A stretch of DNA of 64,000 nucleotides. Source: Cognatundibacterium rivi. GTDB lineage: Bacteria > Pseudomonadota > Gammaproteobacteria > Burkholderiales > Burkholderiaceae_D. The stretch covers positions 62,001 through 126,000 of the forward strand of contig NZ_JAGSPK010000006.1 of assembly GCF_018139565.1 (NCBI RefSeq), written 5' to 3'. A program made the translations under genes and the position numbers. Position 1 is the first letter of the stretch; the number at the start of each line of letters is the position of its first letter. The notes beneath the pieces are model-generated. The model was not told where the DNA came from. It made no database searches and was given only the letters and a program-made list of their open reading frames with translations. Below, one piece after another: positions 37,191-47,894 of this stretch.

Positions 37191-39986
<2,796 letters not shown>

Positions 39987-39990
<4 letters not shown>

Positions 39991-40877
39991 TGTATTCTCC
40001 GAAAAATTTGACCTTCGTCATTGATGGCCAGGTAACTCATGCCGGAACGCTCGAGAAAGCCGAGCCCGTCTTTTTCCAGCAGCATCGTGGTTGTGGTACA
40101 ACTGCCTGCAGTAATTGCCAGCGGTGCCAGCACACTGACGGAACGCCAGTACGACACCGGCATGCCATTGTGCGGATTGAGCACATGACAGTAGCGCCTG
40201 CCATCGACTTCCATAAACCGTTCGTAATCGCCGCTGGTGGCCAGTGCGCCCCGGCTGACCGGAATGCTCGCCACCGTCGCATCGCCGGCACGTGGATCCT
40301 GAATGCCGATTTGCCAGCTGCTGCCATCAGGGCGCGGCCCCAGAAAACGCATATCACCACCGAGATTGACGTAGCCATGTTGCACACCCAGCCGCGTCAA
40401 CACTTCGGCCGCACGATCAACGGCATATTCTTTGCCGAAACCACCGAAATCCAATTCCATTCCCGCTGTGGGCAGAAAGACGCTTGCCTTGTCGCGCACG
40501 ACTTTTTTCCAGCCTATCAGCGGTAGTAATTTTTCCAGGTCGGCTGCAGGCGGTAGCGCGTTGTGGCGGAAATTCCAGGCCTGCCGCAGCACACCGGAAG
40601 TGATGTCAAAACGACCGTCACTCGCGGTATGCAGCATGTCGGCATACGTCAGCAGTGCCACAGTTTCTTCGTCACAGGCGACCGCGCGCAAACCCGCCGC
40701 CGCATTAATGCGGCTGAGCACACTGTCGCTCTGGTAACGGGAGTATTTGCGTTCAATGCGATGAACTTCCGCGATCGCCTGTGCCGCGAGGTGTTGCCCT
40801 TCAATGGCAGCCGCTGCAGCGATACGTATCTCGCAGCGGCTGCCCATGGCAATGAACGCGACAGTGTGCACCGGCAT
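39987..40877 (-). CDS. apbE: FAD:protein FMN transferase (ApbE family)
   Basis: 296 residues from the ATG at 40877, which overlaps the DUF3570 stop as TAATG; a long open upstream extension lies inside DUF3570 and is rejected. Motifs: IAMGSRCEI near the start, GRFDITSGVLRQAWNF, MELDFGGFGKEYAVDRAAE, YVNLGGDMRFLGPRPDG and GALATSGDYERF. ApbE attaches FMN to Thr or Ser of exported proteins using Mg and FAD. A standard lipobox or long signal is not obvious, so how it reaches the periplasm is unclear. The DUF3570 protein encoded just upstream is a likely acceptor. Confidence 0.92.
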
Positions 40878-42010
40878 TACCACAGTCGTGTGAATCCTAC
40901 TTGCAGGCTGGTCGCGCGTAGCGGTGCCAGACCCGGACTGCCGCTGCCGAACAGACGCCACGAGCCGCGTTGTTCGTAGCGTTCCAGTTTCATATCCACA
41001 CTCCAGTCCTGATTGATTTGCCGGGCAATTTTCAACCCGGCGGTGATCGCACCGAAGCCTGACAGACGTTGATCCGCCGAAGTCAGTGCGGAGCCACCGA
41101 AGACATAGCCGGGCGGGAATGGCGGGCCGATTCTGGCATCGTAGACCGGATCGAAATAGAAATTCGCAGCGCGCTGCGAATACCCCCGCAGTGCCGGTGT
41201 GATGGTCCAGCCGCCGGATAAGGACTGCACCCATTCTGCCGACACGGTGTTAGCACTGATGCCGAAGCTGTCGCGGTAATAGCGGTAGCTCAGGCGGCTG
41301 CTGGCATCGGCATTGATGAAGCGATGATTCCATTGCAGCAGCAAGGTGTTCTGATCACGCGTACGCGGGCGGTTGTCTGCCAGTTTGTACGGATCGGAAT
41401 AGTAGCCATGTCCGGCGCTGTGAGTGTACGTCAGTTGCGCAATATCGACCGGGGTAAGAACCTGCGTGATACCCGCGAGGACATTGATCGTCTGACGGCT
41501 TTCATTGGTGACGATACGGTTTGTTGGATTGATGGCATCGTCCGAGCCGCCAACGCCGAATGTCCAGGTCGTGTTTTTGTCTTCGCTGAGCAGGCTGCCT
41601 TGCAGCGACAGCGCACGTGAGCGATAGTCATGCTCGGTAGAGAAGGCCGCACCGACACTGATACTGCCTTGCGGCAGATAGCGCGTGACGGCAACATCGC
41701 CCGCTTTGCGTAAATCGGACATCCGTGAAGCACCTGAAACCGCGGTGTGATAACGCGGTGACGCGCCCGAAACTTCATCCGTGGTCACGCTGGCCGCCAG
41801 CGACCATTCACCGGCGATTGGTGCCAGCACCGACACCGCAGGCGCATGTACCCGTATTCTGTCCATGCCCGCCTGGTCTTCTTTGTATTGCAGGTATTTC
41901 ACACTGATGGCACCGCGTTCAGGTGCCGTTTCAGCGTGAACGACGCCTGGCAGCAGCATCGCTGCTGCCAGCAATGCCTGTCCTAAGGAGGGCTGTTTTT
42001 GTTGATCCAT
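40877..42010 (-). CDS. DUF3570 outer-membrane-like protein
   Basis: 377 residues with a signal peptide (ALLAAAMLLPGVVHA). The mature part has alternating beta-strands with aromatic ends and a final Phe/Trp (VGFTRLW), as in outer-membrane beta-barrels. It carries D78-EVSGAS and AVSGAS95, both like the Ser-Gly-Ala-Ser/Thr core of ApbE flavinylation sites. The gene lies directly before apbE, and DUF3570, DUF4266 and apbE genes commonly cluster. It may be a flavinylated barrel that moves electrons to the surface (inference). Confidence 0.85.
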   Translation of the reverse strand: MDQQKQPSLGQALLAAAMLLPGVVHAETAPERGAISVKYLQYKEDQAGMDRIRVHAPAVSVLAPIAGEWSLAASVTTDEVSGASPRYHTAVSGASRMSDLRKAGDVAVTRYLPQGSISVGAAFSTEHDYRSRALSLQGSLLSEDKNTTWTFGVGGSDDAINPTNRIVTNESRQTINVLAGITQVLTPVDIAQLTYTHSAGHGYYSDPYKLADNRPRTRDQNTLLLQWNHRFINADASSRLSYRYYRDSFGISANTVSAEWVQSLSGGWTITPALRGYSQRAANFYFDPVYDARIGPPFPPGYVFGGSALTSADQRLSGFGAITAGLKIARQINQDWSVDMKLERYEQRGSWRLFGSGSPGLAPLRATSLQVGFTRLW

Positions 42011-42021
42011 GGTAGTCCTTG

Positions 42022-42267
42022 TCAGTTACAGCCGCAGCCGCCACCGCCGACGGCACTGCCGCCGGATGCCGCTTCTTTGCTGGTGTAGATATGTTCATTG
42101 AAACGGGTGGCGAGCCCGTCGTTTTGCATCAGCATGTCGGGACGCGCCAGCTCGCCTTTTTCCCAGGCTTTCACCGGCGTCAGCGCACAGCCGGAAAGCC
42201 CGCTGACGATGGCGCACAGCAGGAGTGCCGGACGGATTGCCCGGCGAATCTGAATACAGCTGCTCAT
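42022..42267 (-). CDS. DUF4266 lipoprotein
   Basis: 81 residues. Lipobox L-S-G-C with Cys27 after a hydrophobic segment; the mature protein is about 55 residues with the family segment VKAWEKGELARPDM and a GGSAVGGGGCGCN tail. The tail has two Cys in a Gly-rich context. It is anchored in the envelope and is always seen near DUF3570/apbE-type genes; function unknown. ATG overlaps the fusion gene stop (ATGA); DUF3570 follows 12 bases on. Confidence 0.87.
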   Translation of the reverse strand: MSSCIQIRRAIRPALLLCAIVSGLSGCALTPVKAWEKGELARPDMLMQNDGLATRFNEHIYTSKEAASGGSAVGGGGCGCN

Positions 42268-44909
42268 TTGGCGACTCCCAGTGCTGTTTTGATACGGCTT
42301 TCCAGTTGCTCACGATCAGCTGCGCGGAAGCCACTGTGTTCATACAGCACCTTGCCATCCTGTCCTATCAATACGCTGCTGGGCATGCCCTTGATACCGT
42401 ACGCACGCGGTGCAGTACCGTTAGGGTCGAAAGCGATAACGAAGCGGGCAGGGGTGCTAGCAAGGAAGTTGCGGGCGTCATCCACTTTGGCATCGACGTT
42501 AATGCCGATGATTTGCAGACCCTGATTGCCGTAGCGAGCCTGCATTTCATTCATCCATGGAAAAGACTGGCGACAAGGGCCGCACCATGAAGCCCAGAAA
42601 TCGACGTAGATCAGTTTGCCCTGATACTGATCGAGTTTGACGCTGCCGTCAGGCCCATTCAGCGTGAAGGCTGGCGCCGGTTTGCCGGTTTCCAGTGCCG
42701 ATGCCGGTGCAGGCAATGCGAGTACGGCGCAAGTTGCAACACTGGCCAGCGTTGTCGCAATGGTCGCAGCGTTTGCGGCGCTGGCACGGCGACGTCGCCA
42801 CACCAACACACCTGCGGCCAGTGCAACGAGCACCGCTAACATCGGGTCATTGCCATCCTGTGCTACGGAGCAGCCGCCACCGCCACGATTCTGTGACTGT
42901 GCGCCCGTGTTATTCACCGGAGCAGCGGCCTCACCCTGACCGCTGAGAGCGATCGTCCAGTTGCCGTTGCTGGCCTGCAGTTGCAGACTGCCGCTGATGC
43001 TGCCAGCCGTTGATGGGACAAAACTGACAGGTAAATCGCAAGAGGCACCGGCAGCCAGTGTCAGCGGGAAGGAAGCACAGGCGTTACTGTCGCTGACGAT
43101 GGCAAATGGTCCGCTGAAGCTGGCGCTGTTGAGCGTCAGTGCGGCACTGCCGGTATTGGTCAGTGTGAAGCGTTTCAGTGCCCCCTGACTACCGATGGCA
43201 GCCTTGCCGAAATCAAACGACTGCGGGTTGCTGGTCAGGCTGGGTGTTGTTGTCGGTACGGCGATGCCGTTACCGCTGAGGTGCACGCTGAATTGTGCGC
43301 CGCTGTCTGTCACCAGCAACAGATCGGCGTTCCGGCTGCCGGTGGCCGTCGGCCTGAAGCTGGAATCAATGCTGCAGTTGCCGCCGGGGCTGACTGTGGC
43401 ACCGGTAACGCAACTGCCTGCCAGTGCAAAATCTCCGGTATGAGTGCCGCCGATGACCAGCGATGTGATCTTCAGCGCGGCATTGCCGTTATTGCTCAGC
43501 GTGGTGCGGTGTGCGCTGGCCTGTTGCCCTACCTGTGTATCAGCGAAGGCGATGGCAGCGGTATCCGACATCACAGGGCGTGCTACGGCAGCGGTGGTGC
43601 CTGAACCGCTGACGCTGACAGACAGATCCGGTGCATTGGAGCGTATCAGCAGTGTGGCGCTGATATTTCCTGTCGCCGTCGGTGCGAATAAGAGTGGCAC
43701 GTTGCAACTCGCCGCCACCGCCAGCGTTCCGGCGCAACCGCCGCTACCGATCGATACTGCCGGAGCGCCACTGACAGCAATGCTGCTGAAGTTGATCGGT
43801 ACATTGCCTTGATTGCTGATGCTGACATTTTGCGTTGTGGCAGTAGCACCTATCGTTTGTGTGCCAAATGACACTGCGCCCGGATTGGCTACCAGCGACG
43901 GTGCGGCAGCACTGGCACTGCCAGCCAGACTGACGGTGACATTATTGTTGCTGGCGTCTGAGACGAGATTCAGATTTGCACTGAATGCACCGGCAACAGC
44001 AGGATTGGCGGTGACGGTGACGGTGCAACTGCCGCCCGCTGCAACGGGAGCGGACGTTGCACACGTGCCGCCCAGTCTGAATATCGTGGCATTCGTACCG
44101 GACAGCGAGATGGCACTGAAATTCAGCGTTGCCTGCCCGGCGTTATTCACGGTGATGGTCTGTACCGGTGAAGTGCTACCGGTCAGCATTGAGCCGAAAT
44201 TCAGGGAGTTGGCAGAAATCGCAACCGTGGCCGTTGGTACGGCATTACCGGTGCCACTCAGCGGAATACTGCTGCTGCCACCCGTGGCGTTGTGATTAAT
44301 TGTCAGTGTGCCGCTGCGTGCACCGGCTGCCGACGGACGGAATACCAGTTGCACCTGACATGCAGCACCTGCAGCCAGTACGCTGCCTGCGCTACAACTA
44401 CCGCCGTTCATGACAAAGTCACTGGCATGATTACCGCCGACGCTGATAGCGCTGATGTTCAGCGTGGCATTGCCACTGTTGGTGAGCGTTGTACTGAGGG
44501 CGTTGCTGTTCTGACCGACGGTGGTGCCTGCAAATGACAGGCTGGCCGGTGCCAGCGAGGCGACTGCAGAGGCGGTCACATTCGGATTACCGATGAAGGC
44601 AGCAAGATCGGCAATCTCGGCGGCATTGAATTTGCCGTTGTAGAGCGACCCCATGCCACCACGGTTGGCGGCAAAAGCGCTGCTGATCACGCTTGGGTTA
44701 TTCGCGGCAGCGAGAATACCGCTTACGTTATTTGCGGGGGAGGCACTGTGACATGATGCACATGAGGTGCCGCCGGAAACGGGACCATTCAGATACAGGC
44801 TCTTCCCGTTGAGCGCATCGGCTGCCTGTGCTGCCGGGGCAAGGGCAAAGAAAGCCCACATGCCGGCTGCGTATAACGCATGAGGTTGTGGGGGGCGGAT
44901 TTTTTTCAT
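42264..44909 (-). CDS. Cytochrome c / choice-of-anchor D / JDVT-CTERM / TlpA fusion protein
   Basis: 881 residues from the ATG at 44909 (GGAG eight bases upstream; an upstream start at 44936 is rejected). Signal peptide; c-type heme site CASCH at 50-54 with a possible Met ligand near 86; about five repeats of the choice-of-anchor D (ASH-like) type, each with TLTNSGNATLNIS-like strands and Cys pairs; then the sorting signal GGGGCS (Cys680), a hydrophobic helix and RRRR; then a second signal-like segment and a TlpA thioredoxin domain with WASWCGPCR near 775. A sorting signal is normally C-terminal, so this is a true fusion. It probably carries electrons or thiols in the envelope and is cut by the MrtJ-like protease encoded upstream. 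Confidence 0.85.
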   Translation of the reverse strand: MKKIRPPQPHALYAAGMWAFFALAPAAQAADALNGKSLYLNGPVSGGTSCASCHSASPANNVSGILAAANNPSVISSAFAANRGGMGSLYNGKFNAAEIADLAAFIGNPNVTASAVASLAPASLSFAGTTVGQNSNALSTTLTNSGNATLNISAISVGGNHASDFVMNGGSCSAGSVLAAGAACQVQLVFRPSAAGARSGTLTINHNATGGSSSIPLSGTGNAVPTATVAISANSLNFGSMLTGSTSPVQTITVNNAGQATLNFSAISLSGTNATIFRLGGTCATSAPVAAGGSCTVTVTANPAVAGAFSANLNLVSDASNNNVTVSLAGSASAAAPSLVANPGAVSFGTQTIGATATTQNVSISNQGNVPINFSSIAVSGAPAVSIGSGGCAGTLAVAASCNVPLLFAPTATGNISATLLIRSNAPDLSVSVSGSGTTAAVARPVMSDTAAIAFADTQVGQQASAHRTTLSNNGNAALKITSLVIGGTHTGDFALAGSCVTGATVSPGGNCSIDSSFRPTATGSRNADLLLVTDSGAQFSVHLSGNGIAVPTTTPSLTSNPQSFDFGKAAIGSQGALKRFTLTNTGSAALTLNSASFSGPFAIVSDSNACASFPLTLAAGASCDLPVSFVPSTAGSISGSLQLQASNGNWTIALSGQGEAAAPVNNTGAQSQNRGGGGCSVAQDGNDPMLAVLVALAAGVLVWRRRRASAANAATIATTLASVATCAVLALPAPASALETGKPAPAFTLNGPDGSVKLDQYQGKLIYVDFWASWCGPCRQSFPWMNEMQARYGNQGLQIIGINVDAKVDDARNFLASTPARFVIAFDPNGTAPRAYGIKGMPSSVLIGQDGKVLYEHSGFRAADREQLESRIKTALGVAK

Positions 44910-44925
44910 CGATACTCCAATCAGT

Positions 44926-45312
44926 TTAAGAAACACACACGTCGATCACCAATAAATTGCACAGGCCATGTATCAGCGCACACAGTCGCCAGTCCCGCCA
45001 GCGCTGGTAAATCACGCCGAATAACAAACCCGGCCAGAACACCAGCATTGCTGCCGTCAGTCCCGCACTCAAGTGCAGGGTGCTAAAAACCAGTGCGCAG
45101 ACCAACAGCGCTGGCAGTGCTGTTGTCCGTTGCAGCAACCACGCATGCAGACCCGCGCGCATGATCCATTCCTCCAGCAGCGGAGCCACGAGAACGAGGC
45201 GCACAACGGTGCCCGCGTCAGGAAAGAGAAGGGCATGGCTGCAAAAGAAAGGTGGCGAGGCAAACACGTTGGTCGGGCAATCCGTTATTGTTGTGACGGT
45301 CAATACCCGCAT
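44926..45312 (-). CDS. mrtJ: CPBP-type intramembrane protease of the JDVT-CTERM system (MrtJ-like)
   Basis: 128 residues from the ATG at 45312; the true start may be further in, since a promoter-like sequence overlaps this region (a GTG at 45267 is an option). CPBP/Abi motifs are present: LLEEWIMRAG (EE-x3-R), a later His in FSTLHLSAG and HGLCNLL. The family is a glutamic-type membrane protease that processes JDVT-CTERM signals. The gene is 17 bases before the fusion protein with such a signal, which supports the call strongly. It is divergent from the ECF sigma gene. Confidence 0.8.
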   Translation of the reverse strand: MRVLTVTTITDCPTNVFASPPFFCSHALLFPDAGTVVRLVLVAPLLEEWIMRAGLHAWLLQRTTALPALLVCALVFSTLHLSAGLTAAMLVFWPGLLFGVIYQRWRDWRLCALIHGLCNLLVIDVCVS

Positions 45313-45330
45313 CTGTGAAAATGGTTCAAA
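45301..45330 (-). promoter_or_regulatory. Probable ECF promoter facing the redox operon
   Basis: Read on the minus strand: TTTGAAC (45330-45324), 16 bases, then GGTATTG (45307-45301) followed by ACCG. It matches the sequence at 45361-45390 facing the other way in both boxes and in exact spacing. Confidence 0.65.
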
Positions 45331-45360
45331 ATTGCGGCAAAAATTTATTTTTTTATTTGG

Positions 45361-45390
45361 TTTGAACTTTTCTCCTCCCGCCCGGTATAG
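45361..45390 (+). promoter_or_regulatory. Probable ECF promoter in front of the sigma factor gene
   Basis: TTTGAAC (45361-45367), 16 bases, GGTATAG (45384-45390), followed by ACG. It sits about 23 bases before the ATG at 45413. The AAC of the first box and the spacing resemble extracytoplasmic sigma factor promoters, which suggests autoregulation. Confidence 0.65.
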
Positions 45391-45412
45391 ACGTGCCAGA
45401 AGGAGAAATGGC

Positions 45413-45988
45413 ATGCGGACAGGCAGGAGCGCTGGTGTGGCGGATGAATTGGATGAGAATGCGGTATTACGGCGAATATCCGGCGGGGACAAACTCGCCT
45501 TTCAGGCGCTGTATCGCGTTTATTTCTCCCGTCTGGCACGTTTTCTGAACCGTCTGACACGCAATGTGCCGCTGATTGAAGAGATCATTAATGACACGAT
45601 GCTGGTGGTCTGGCAAAAGGCGGCGACGTTTGATGGCAGTTGCAAACCCTCGACCTGGATTTTTTCGATTGCCTACCGCCAGGGACTGAAAGCCTTACGC
45701 GGACTGGATGAGCCGCTGGAGCCGCAGGATGAACTGTCAGGCGAAACCGGAAATGGGCCGGAACATGCGATGGTGGCGCATCAACTGCGGCAAGGTGTGA
45801 GCCGGGCGATTGATCGCTTGTCAGTCGAGCAGCGCGTGGTCGTCAGCCTGACCTATTACCACGGCATGGCCTATCAGGAGATTGCTGACACGATGGGGTG
45901 CCCGGTAAATACGGTGAAAACCCGTATGTTCCACGCGCGCCAGAAACTGAAGGATATGCTGTCTGATCATATGGAAGAAATGGAATGA
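45413..45988 (+). CDS. ECF-family RNA polymerase sigma factor
   Basis: 191 residues from the ATG at 45413, with AAGGAG about seven bases upstream; a longer frame to 45080 is non-coding divergent DNA. Region 2 is ALYRVYFSRLARFLNRL...EEIINDTMLVVWQKAATFDG and region 4 is RLSVEQRVVVSLTYYHGMAYQEIADTMGCPVNTVKTRMFHARQKL. It directs RNA polymerase to stress or envelope promoters; a candidate site lies on each side of it. ATGA overlaps the anti-sigma gene, a standard pairing. Confidence 0.93.
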   Translation: MRTGRSAGVADELDENAVLRRISGGDKLAFQALYRVYFSRLARFLNRLTRNVPLIEEIINDTMLVVWQKAATFDGSCKPSTWIFSIAYRQGLKALRGLDEPLEPQDELSGETGNGPEHAMVAHQLRQGVSRAIDRLSVEQRVVVSLTYYHGMAYQEIADTMGCPVNTVKTRMFHARQKLKDMLSDHMEEME

Positions 45989-46623
45989 GCACCCCAATCA
46001 CAATGAGTGACGCAGAACATGAGGCACTGCAGGAATTGCTGCCCTGGTACGCATCCGGTGCGCTGAGCGAGGCGGATGCCGGTCGTGTGCAGGAACACCT
46101 GCGTCACTGCGCCGTCTGTCGCGAAGAACTCACCTGGCAGCGCAGTCTGCTGGCAACGGAGAGCCCTTTACCCGCAGGTCTTGATCCGGAACGTGCACTG
46201 GCGCGGCTGATGCCGCAGCTCGATGTCGTTGAATCCGAGCCGCCTGCTCGCCTGCTTACCCGCCTGCAGCGCTGGTTACAGGCAACAGGTTGGCAGGGAT
46301 GGGCGATGGCCGGGCAGTTTGCCGCCATTGTTGTGCTGGCAGTGCAACTCTTGCCGCATCAGGAAGCCCCGGTATATCAGGCTCTGGGACGTGGTGCCGC
46401 TGCCACGCCAGATGTGCTGGTCGTGTTCAGACCGGATGCCCGCCTGCAGGATGTGCAGCGTATTTTGCAGTCGCATGGGGCGCAGATTATCGGGGGACCA
46501 ACCGTAACCGGCGCTTATATGCTGGAAGTTGAACCGGAACATCAGGTGCCATTGCTGCAGGCATTACGCGCTGAGCGCTCAGTGGAAATGGCTGAATCGC
46601 TGACCGCCGGAAGCCCGCCATGA
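45985..46623 (+). CDS. Zinc-finger anti-sigma factor with periplasmic propeptide-like domain
   Basis: 212 residues. N-terminal zf-HC2 anti-sigma domain with HLRHCAVCREEL (H-x3-C-x2-C, zinc-bound), a membrane helix near residues 107-127 (AMAGQFAAIVVLAVQLL), and a C-terminal part from about 140 (VVFRPDARLQDVQRILQSHG, then GAYMLEVEPEHQVPLL) that resembles the prodomain fold of subtilisins. It should hold the ECF factor at the membrane until cleaved. Overlaps sigma (ATGA) and S8 protease (ATGA) genes; the protease may sense or cut it (inference). Confidence 0.87.
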   Translation: MSTPITMSDAEHEALQELLPWYASGALSEADAGRVQEHLRHCAVCREELTWQRSLLATESPLPAGLDPERALARLMPQLDVVESEPPARLLTRLQRWLQATGWQGWAMAGQFAAIVVLAVQLLPHQEAPVYQALGRGAAATPDVLVVFRPDARLQDVQRILQSHGAQIIGGPTVTGAYMLEVEPEHQVPLLQALRAERSVEMAESLTAGSPP

Positions 46624-47894
46624 TGCGGGTTCTGATGCTCGTGCTATGTCTGTTGTCCGGTGCGGAGATAGCAGCGGGCGAACAGGACTTACCCCAAATC
46701 CTCTCGCTGGCTGATGTGAAAGCGGAAGCGCCAGTAGTCGAACACGCGGAAATACTGGTGATGTTGCATCTGCCGGCGCCACACTTCCGTACAGATGCTT
46801 ATGGCAGCCTGAATTATCGTGAAGATGCGGGGCATGCAGCGCGTAAGCGCATTGCGCTTGAACTGGCGCAGGAATATCAGCTCGAGCTGATAGAAGACTG
46901 GGCAATGCCGGTGTTGAATGTCGATTGTTACCGCATGCGTCTGCCTGCTGATAAAGCAGCGGCACCTGTATTGGAAGCGTTGTTGCATGACCGTCGCATC
47001 GCGTGGGCGCAACTGATACAGGGATATGTCGCCCAGGCAGGAAAAGACCCCTTGTATCGTATGCAGCCTGCCGCTGAGCCGTGGCATCTGGATGAGGTGC
47101 GTAAAGTGGCAACCGGGCGTAAGGTGATGATCGCGGTGGTCGACAGCGGCGTGGAAAGCAGCCACCCGGATCTTGCAGGACAGGTGGCAGTAGAGGAAAA
47201 TTTTGTCGATGAACAGCAACGTGTTCCTGAGCTGCACGGTACGGCTGTCGCCGGGATCATTGTGGCGCGTGCTGGCAATGGTGTCGGTATCGAAGGCATT
47301 GCGCCAGATGCACGACTGATGGCTTTGCGTGCATGCTGGCAGACCGGGGCTGCGACCCGCTGCAACAGTTTTACGCTGGCCAAGGCGCTGAATTATGCGG
47401 TGTCGAAAGGTGCGCAGATCATTAATCTCAGTCTCTCGGGGCCGCCGGACAGGTTATTACAACAGTTGGTTGAAGTGGCGCAGGCGCGCGGAATCCGCGT
47501 GGTCGGTGCGGTGGATCCGGCGCGGCCAGACGGCGGTTTTCCCGCCAATATGCCGGGAGTGTTTGCGGTAGCGTCGGATGGTGGTGTGCCACGCCATGGC
47601 TTGCATCCCTTACTGGCTCCCGGAAGGGATATTCCGACGACGATGCCTGGCGGGCGCTGGGGAATGGTCAACGGGTCATCCTACGCGGCTGCGCATGTCA
47701 CCGGGATGCTGGCGCTGCTGGAAGAGCTCAGGCCTCAGTTTCCGGCCGCCAGATTGCATGATGCGATTGTACTGAATGAAGGAAGTGCGGCGTTGACGGG
47801 GATAGATCTTTGTGCAACCCTTATGCGTATTTCAGGAAAATGTTCATGCGTGTGTCTATCCAGTTCCGGCAGCCGGCTCTCACGCTCACCCTGA
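46620..47894 (+). CDS. S8 family serine peptidase (subtilase)
   Basis: 424 residues with a signal peptide (LMLVLCLLSGAEIAAG). A prodomain-like region is at about 40-130. The catalytic domain has Asp in AVVDSGVESSHPDL, His in ELHGTAVAGII and Ser in NGSSYAAAHVTG (the usual GTSMA is altered to GSSYA). The normal oxyanion-hole Asn (AAGN) seems to be replaced near VVGAVDPARPDGG. It would be exported to the periplasm. Its gene overlaps the anti-sigma gene and the next gene (49 bases), so all four are one operon. A role in sigma-factor release is inferred only. Confidence 0.85.
   Translation: MMRVLMLVLCLLSGAEIAAGEQDLPQILSLADVKAEAPVVEHAEILVMLHLPAPHFRTDAYGSLNYREDAGHAARKRIALELAQEYQLELIEDWAMPVLNVDCYRMRLPADKAAAPVLEALLHDRRIAWAQLIQGYVAQAGKDPLYRMQPAAEPWHLDEVRKVATGRKVMIAVVDSGVESSHPDLAGQVAVEENFVDEQQRVPELHGTAVAGIIVARAGNGVGIEGIAPDARLMALRACWQTGAATRCNSFTLAKALNYAVSKGAQIINLSLSGPPDRLLQQLVEVAQARGIRVVGAVDPARPDGGFPANMPGVFAVASDGGVPRHGLHPLLAPGRDIPTTMPGGRWGMVNGSSYAAAHVTGMLALLEELRPQFPAARLHDAIVLNEGSAALTGIDLCATLMRISGKCSCVCLSSSGSRLSRSP

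Follow-up and report, generated by a model that had tools for sequence, protein, structure and literature searches.

The 64,000-nucleotide stretch of the Cognatundibacterium rivi genome analyzed here (the window; RefSeq assembly GCF_018139565.1, contig NZ_JAGSPK010000006.1, positions 62,001 to 126,000) contains a gene in which a cytochrome c-like protein with ASH repeats and a TlpA-like thioredoxin protein are joined in one frame, with a JDVT-CTERM sorting signal and a second signal peptide between them. We consider it probable (about 70%), from sequence comparison, that this fused precursor is cut by the intramembrane protease MrtJ, encoded next to it, and by signal peptidase I to give an anchored cytochrome-like half and a periplasmic TlpA. 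What the DNA shows directly is the fusion, its split orthologues, the recurrence of fusion, a conserved signal, and the surrounding genes. The parts of the gene, and mrtJ, are as follows.

42264..44909, minus strand: fused gene, 881 aa (signal peptide, CxxCH, five ASH repeats, JDVT-CTERM, second signal peptide, TlpA-like domain)
44823..44909, minus strand: N-terminal signal peptide, site between AQA and AD, read from the sequence by eye
44748..44762, minus strand: CASCH heme-binding motif (sequence; PF13442, 15.8 bits)
42942..44546, minus strand: five choice-of-anchor D/ASH-like repeats (NF012200, five stretches; PF22073 and PF22544, five stretches each)
42786..42887, minus strand: internal JDVT-CTERM signal (NF033191) of GGGGC, helix, and RRRR, with the Cys codon at 42870-42872
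42696..42785, minus strand: second signal-peptide-like segment, its site between ASA and LE aligning with the equivalent sites of TlpA from split relatives
42267..42695, minus strand: TlpA-like thioredoxin domain (PF08534, 81.9 bits), CGPC at 42573-42584
44926..45492, minus strand: mrtJ, JDVT-CTERM-system glutamic intramembrane protease (NF033192, 77.8 bits, cut-off 75)

The frame was read from an ATG at 44909 through 881 codons without interruption. The first-pass annotation had placed a JDVT signal inside a cytochrome/ASH/TlpA fusion, and NF033191 indeed matches residues 675–708, at 54.3 bits in the whole protein (cut-off 27) and at 60.6 bits when the segment is scored alone. The invariant Cys, hydrophobic helix, and basic cluster of JDVT-CTERM are all present (GGGGCS...DPMLAVLVALAAGVLVWRRRR), and 173 residues lie beyond the signal, which is thus not C-terminal. 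As that annotation had also noted, the frame continues into a second signal-like stretch, ASAANAATIATTLASVATCAVLALPAPASA, which ends in PAPASA directly before LE and takes the Arg cluster of the JDVT signal as its basic n-region, and then into a thioredoxin domain. PF08534 scores 81.9 bits against a gathering threshold of 26.6, and the WCGPC motif is present. We call the domain TlpA-like because the NCBIfam models for ResA (93.9 bits, cut-off 170) and TlpA (65.3 bits, cut-off 230) score under their cut-offs. In the N-terminal half, the CASCH motif is accompanied by a weak match to the cytochrome model PF13442 (15.8 bits, cut-off 27); the relative in genome G1158 scores 30.3 bits, above that cut-off.

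The MrtJ domain spans about 44944-45204 (minus strand), and mrtJ lies directly upstream of the fused gene. A cognate protease is therefore encoded in this genome, where the whole-genome search gave MrtJ 80 bits (equivalog cut-off 75), and no JDVT match over the cut-off occurs in the genome apart from the fused protein (60.7 bits, E 6.7e-16).

Elsewhere the JDVT signal is normally terminal, as had been assumed. We scored up to 20 candidates per genome in a class sample of 369 genomes and up to 18 per genome in an order sample of 399, so that the numbers of JDVT matches are lower bounds. Among at least 66 matches from other genomes in the class sample, 62 end within 25 residues past the domain, three extend 351–368 residues beyond it, and one leaves its contig. 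The order sample gave at least 29 such matches, of which 28 end within 19 residues. Its exception, in genome G685, continues for 163 residues beyond the JDVT domain, into a TlpA domain.

Relatives carrying the two halves as separate genes occur in the same genus. A search of 43 genomes found a TlpA match in 21, the own genome included. Nine other loci hold a JDVT and TlpA pair, in all nine as separate genes, and a recheck of the remaining genus loci for a JDVT signal upstream of TlpA found none further. The pattern used in that recheck was false in L085, where it fell inside the G433 TlpA frame, and in some off-frame stretches; G433 itself has a true JDVT signal in a split arrangement. In the nine split congeners, the JDVT protein stops 3–11 residues past its Arg/Lys cluster, and after a gap of 55–96 nucleotides TlpA begins at a separate ATG and carries a basic signal peptide of its own. 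G433 also has an earlier ATG, in frame and overlapping the JDVT gene; the ATG that yields a signal peptide lies 91 nucleotides further on. A MrtJ-like frame lies upstream in eight of the nine; the ninth reaches a contig end. Three congeners with open-frame lengths of 925, 921, and 919 aa were considered as fusions and rejected, since stop codons read in their DNA mark them as split genes. By eye, several of the congeneric gaps contain a GC-rich inverted repeat followed by T's.

The junction of the fused gene lacks the stop, the spacer, and both the ATG start and the basic n-region of TlpA; the RRRR of the JDVT signal occupies the place of that n-region. Of the 68 columns that do not vary across the nine split relatives, the fused TlpA retains 64. 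An assembly or sequencing error that joined two genes, a possibility raised in the first-pass annotation, fits the finding of the fused state in just one of ten loci of the genus and in a single genome of the species. However, the stretch from the Arg cluster to mature TlpA is free of stops in both other frames, so a single-base insertion or deletion could not conceal a split, and the loss of a whole spacer and start codon involves more than one base. A hidden frameshift was rejected on these grounds. Six other genomes carry the fusion, one of them (G685) as a complete single contig, and an error is thus very improbable.

We infer the topology, both cleavages, the anchoring, and the surface location of the products as follows. 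Two neighboring envelope genes, joined in frame, would make a single precursor that becomes two proteins after processing. The N-terminal signal peptide would export the CxxCH/ASH half, and the JDVT helix would cross the membrane with RRRR on the cytoplasmic side. The second hydrophobic segment would then recross as an internal signal peptide with RRRR as its positive n-region, taking the TlpA-like domain to the periplasm; these two opposite passages around RRRR would place both domains there. Signal peptidase I, cutting after ASA and before LE, would release TlpA to join the electron-transfer cluster of DsbD, DUF4266, DUF3570, and ApbE described below. A MrtJ cut near the JDVT Cys would leave the cytochrome/ASH half anchored, probably via lipid on the Cys, and this half may reach the cell surface. 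A short two-helix piece would be left over after both cuts. The earlier suggestion that cleavage at the JDVT signal could by itself release two products holds in part. One precursor with two products is what the split orthologues, the recurring fusion, the JDVT constraint, and the adjacent MrtJ with its single substrate over the cut-off point to, but a JDVT cut on its own would not free TlpA, which the second hydrophobic segment would still hold in the membrane; signal peptidase I would also be required.

Following up G685, we searched 399 genomes of its family (53 matches in 49 of them) and then two genera; 30 loci of the family were checked, with 23 matches outside this set, and the counts are of loci found rather than a census. 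Genus g545 (16 genomes) has eight JDVT and TlpA loci, five fused (G1158, G1215, G1211, G1208, and G1214) and three split (G1213, G1209, and G1217). Nine more split pairs are among the 30 family loci (L241, L247, L251, L253, L254, L256, L262, L267, and L268), all with JDVT signals over the cut-off (33.5–48.5 bits). This other family of the same order thus has six fused and 12 split loci, and 28 resolved loci overall comprise seven fused and 21 split. G1031 (L273), with its TlpA at a contig edge, was excluded from these counts, and in G1207 TlpA is present and no JDVT signal was found upstream. All seven fused JDVT segments are over the family cut-off (37–61 bits). For the first 19 loci, the DUF4266 motif lies downstream in every one, CxxCH is present in 18 (the nineteenth is truncated by a contig end), and 16 have a MrtJ-like frame upstream; of the three without one, two are contig ends. 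The linker between the JDVT signal and TlpA ranges among the fused loci from none to more than 70 residues. The long linker of G1158 (L272), LTPRPLPRCGRGG, resembles a translated dispersed palindromic repeat; that of G1215 (L294) has a repeating AASVSSN unit.

The phylogenies require a minimum of three switches between the fused and split states on a 19-row TlpA tree, and four on both a 19-row concatenated tree and a 28-row tree. The 28-row tree places the C. rivi fused gene in a 10-row clade of its own genus (100/100), away from the other fused loci, and split lineages surround both groups that contain fused loci. A single clade of all seven fused rows was rejected (p about 1e-108), as was one of the six fused loci of the other family (p about 3e-51).

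The fused loci of three species (G1158, G1215, and G1211) group together with support, with no split locus among them. Within this group, the ratio of nonsynonymous to synonymous substitution rates (dN/dS) is 0.15–0.24 for the 35 JDVT codons and 0.13–0.24 for TlpA, with the second-signal stretch just 26–52% identical. If their common ancestor was already fused, the low JDVT value means that the signal has been kept despite its internal position. This constraint argues against a rather unlikely scheme in which signal peptidase I is the sole cutter, TlpA is freed, and the JDVT segment stays as a two-helix anchor of the N-terminal half on which MrtJ no longer acts. The retention of mrtJ beside the only gene in the genome with a JDVT match over the cut-off argues in the same direction. 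A small-x-small site does lie immediately before mature TlpA in all seven fused proteins, which fits this scheme as well as the two-cut one, and signal peptidase I is general, with the tolerance of MrtJ for a following helix putative. The single continuous frame in seven loci would suit an uncut bifunctional protein, a membrane hairpin linking the cytochrome and thioredoxin domains, and electron exchange between the two is conceivable within a DsbD/DUF3570 cluster of the kind covered in passages of PMC8238504. The predominance of split orthologues (21 of 28), the retention of cleavage sites and of the JDVT Cys after fusion, and the wide range of linker lengths make this unlikely.

Processing of one precursor also has to be weighed against a separate start for TlpA, in which case the fusion would be apparent or only part of the output. 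An in-frame run of GTG, TTG, and GTG precedes RRRR, with a weak AGG upstream, and a start at the GTG at 42801-42803 (MWRRRRASAAN...) would yield a standard signal peptide. Better candidates occur in G1214, where a GTG after AGGA opens MRRSAVVAATTLSLLAPAAHA directly before VE, and in G1158, with a GTG after AGGAGG and ATGs further on. The source gene, however, has no ATG at this position, its Shine-Dalgarno match is three bases long, and G685 has none. Fused G1208 has no ATG, GTG, or TTG from the Arg cluster to mature TlpA, so a separate start of its TlpA is hardly possible. An internal start is accordingly improbable.

The JDVT signal is also fused to a second, unrelated partner. The four class-sample exceptions begin with a large adhesin (DxDxDG-type repeats), followed by JDVT, a second signal peptide, an outer-membrane barrel, and OmpA, with Pfam scans on two of them. 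In the GTDB genome collection, the adhesin/barrel region matched 17 loci, of which ten, including those four, are fused; the junction is readable in each, some being cut by a contig end.

L185, L186, L187, L191-L197, L200, L201, L203: ten distinct adhesin-JDVT-signal peptide-barrel-OmpA loci

The JDVT signal is over the cut-off in nine of the ten, with L201 at 23.4 bits, and the fused L203 locus comes from an isolate, Granulosicoccaceae sp. 1_MG-2023. MrtJ is over its cut-off in eight of these ten genomes. L198 is a split adhesin/barrel pair with a terminal JDVT signal. L199, L202, and L204 are split, with sorting-signal-like tails that lack the motif Cys, and the search for MrtJ in the L202 and L204 genomes found none; the L202 tail matches GlyGly-CTERM at 16.4 bits (cut-off 15.5). 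These terminal signals without Cys suggest that different sorting enzymes may handle the adhesin/barrel pair. L205-L207 are three other barrels without JDVT. The second segment of L201 (6001-6777) ends in a lipobox-like IASC, and its second product may thus be a lipoprotein. In layout, the barrel-type JDVT loci are TraA/TraB-like.

With TlpA-like proteins and OmpA-type barrels as its two unrelated partners, the JDVT signal followed by a signal peptide could form a reusable polyprotein joint, cut by MrtJ and signal peptidase I, that delivers equal amounts of two envelope proteins and that lineages have repeatedly gained from, or exchanged for, a pair of separate genes. We see about even odds for this extension; if it is true, MrtJ requires no free C-terminus.

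Several observations weigh against the two-cut processing or its repeated origin. In two of the ten barrel-fusion genomes, both metagenome-assembled, no MrtJ was found. The nearest MrtJ over the cut-off in G685 is about 8 kb off, and at 61.1 bits the MrtJ-like protein adjoining the G1158 fusion falls short of the cut-off of 75. A clade of the fused gene with G685 was not rejected on the TlpA tree (p 0.07, 55 of 59 attempted rows), nor was one with G685 and G1158 on the N-half tree (p 0.265, 12 rows). Fusion and fission cannot be told apart as the direction of the switch on these trees, and within the species the fusion was observed in one genome. The literature searched gave no experimental test of JDVT/MrtJ sorting and no cleavage, lipidation, or localization data for any JDVT protein.

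Related systems supply precedents. JDVT-CTERM and MrtJ (NF033191, NF033192) are presented as a two-gene system in passages of PMC11980579 that refer to Haft 2024. The locus here shares the signal and protease families, the neighboring genes, and the single substrate over the cut-off, but its signal lies inside the protein, with a second signal peptide and a thioredoxin domain after it, whereas the signal in those passages is C-terminal. An internal sorting signal as such is already known. HVO_0405 of Haloferax volcanii is, according to passages of PMC7157517, a strain-specific fusion of formerly separate genes whose central archaeosortase site is cleaved experimentally. It is archaeal, with the unrelated protease ArtA and an unrelated signal, and the same passages describe no recurring fused/split series like that seen here. 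Passages of PMC11980579 present Myxococcus xanthus MXAN_5598 as a possible two-gene fusion with an internal MYXO-CTERM signal of the related MrtX system and propose its processing. Its order of adhesin, CTERM, outer-membrane barrel, and OmpA is that of the ten barrel-type JDVT loci, with MYXO-CTERM rather than JDVT as the signal and a partner other than TlpA. They also report that MrtX cleaves TraA bearing a C-terminal FLAG tag, which together with HVO_0405 supports the action of sorting enzymes on nonterminal signals.

Two further systems are more distant from the fused gene. The midcut-by-XrtH model (NF033207), whose name we take to mean a mid-protein cut at a sorting signal, belongs to an exosortase system and scores 31.1 bits over an ASH region of the fused protein, under its cut-off of 45. 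FbcH, the cytochrome b/c1 precursor of Bradyrhizobium, is separated at an internal signal peptide and, unlike the protein here, has neither a sorting signal nor an intramembrane sorting protease.

In the literature passages searched, with the founding paper (Haft 2024) outside that search, no internal JDVT signal is described. Within that literature, three things appear to be new: the internal JDVT/MrtJ case, the second signal peptide coupled to it, and the series of fused and split loci. The seven fused and 21 split orthologues offer a natural test of whether a sorting protease depends on a terminal signal, and they bear on how bacteria might hold two envelope proteins at equal amounts. Cleavage at the internal signal would be easily visible given the large size difference between the two halves, as with HVO_0405 for the archaeosortase.

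The genes downstream of the fused gene are as follows.

42022..42267, minus strand: DUF4266 small secreted protein, C-terminus GGGGCGCN (PF14086, 74.8 bits)
40877..42010, minus strand: DUF3570 protein with two SGAS flavinylation-type motifs (PF12094, 214.8 bits; motifs by reading)
39987..41234, minus strand: ApbE flavin mononucleotide (FMN) transferase (PF02424, 257.3 bits; true start probably within the frame)
38170..39990, minus strand: DsbD thiol:disulfide transporter (NF001419, 581 bits, cut-off 330)

DsbD, a thioredoxin-like protein, DUF4266, DUF3570, and ApbE, the members of the hybrid thioredoxin/flavinylation cluster in passages of PMC8238504, are thus all found together at the locus. 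The downstream genes are those of that cluster, including a DUF3570 protein with two SGAS motifs, but the thioredoxin-like member here is fused to a JDVT-sorted cytochrome-like protein. The DUF4266 end GGGGCGCN (42022-42054) looks like the GGGGC start of the adjoining JDVT signal, with no helix after it. A thioredoxin reductase-like gene, recognized by eye at 37191-38138 directly after DsbD, would with DsbD perhaps complete a route for electrons between NADPH and the TlpA-like protein. The type II secretin GspD is over its cut-off in the same genome, which makes surface export of the N-terminal half by type II secretion possible. By eye, a divergent cluster at 45400-47894 resembles an extracytoplasmic function (ECF) sigma factor, an anti-sigma factor, and a subtilisin-like protease.

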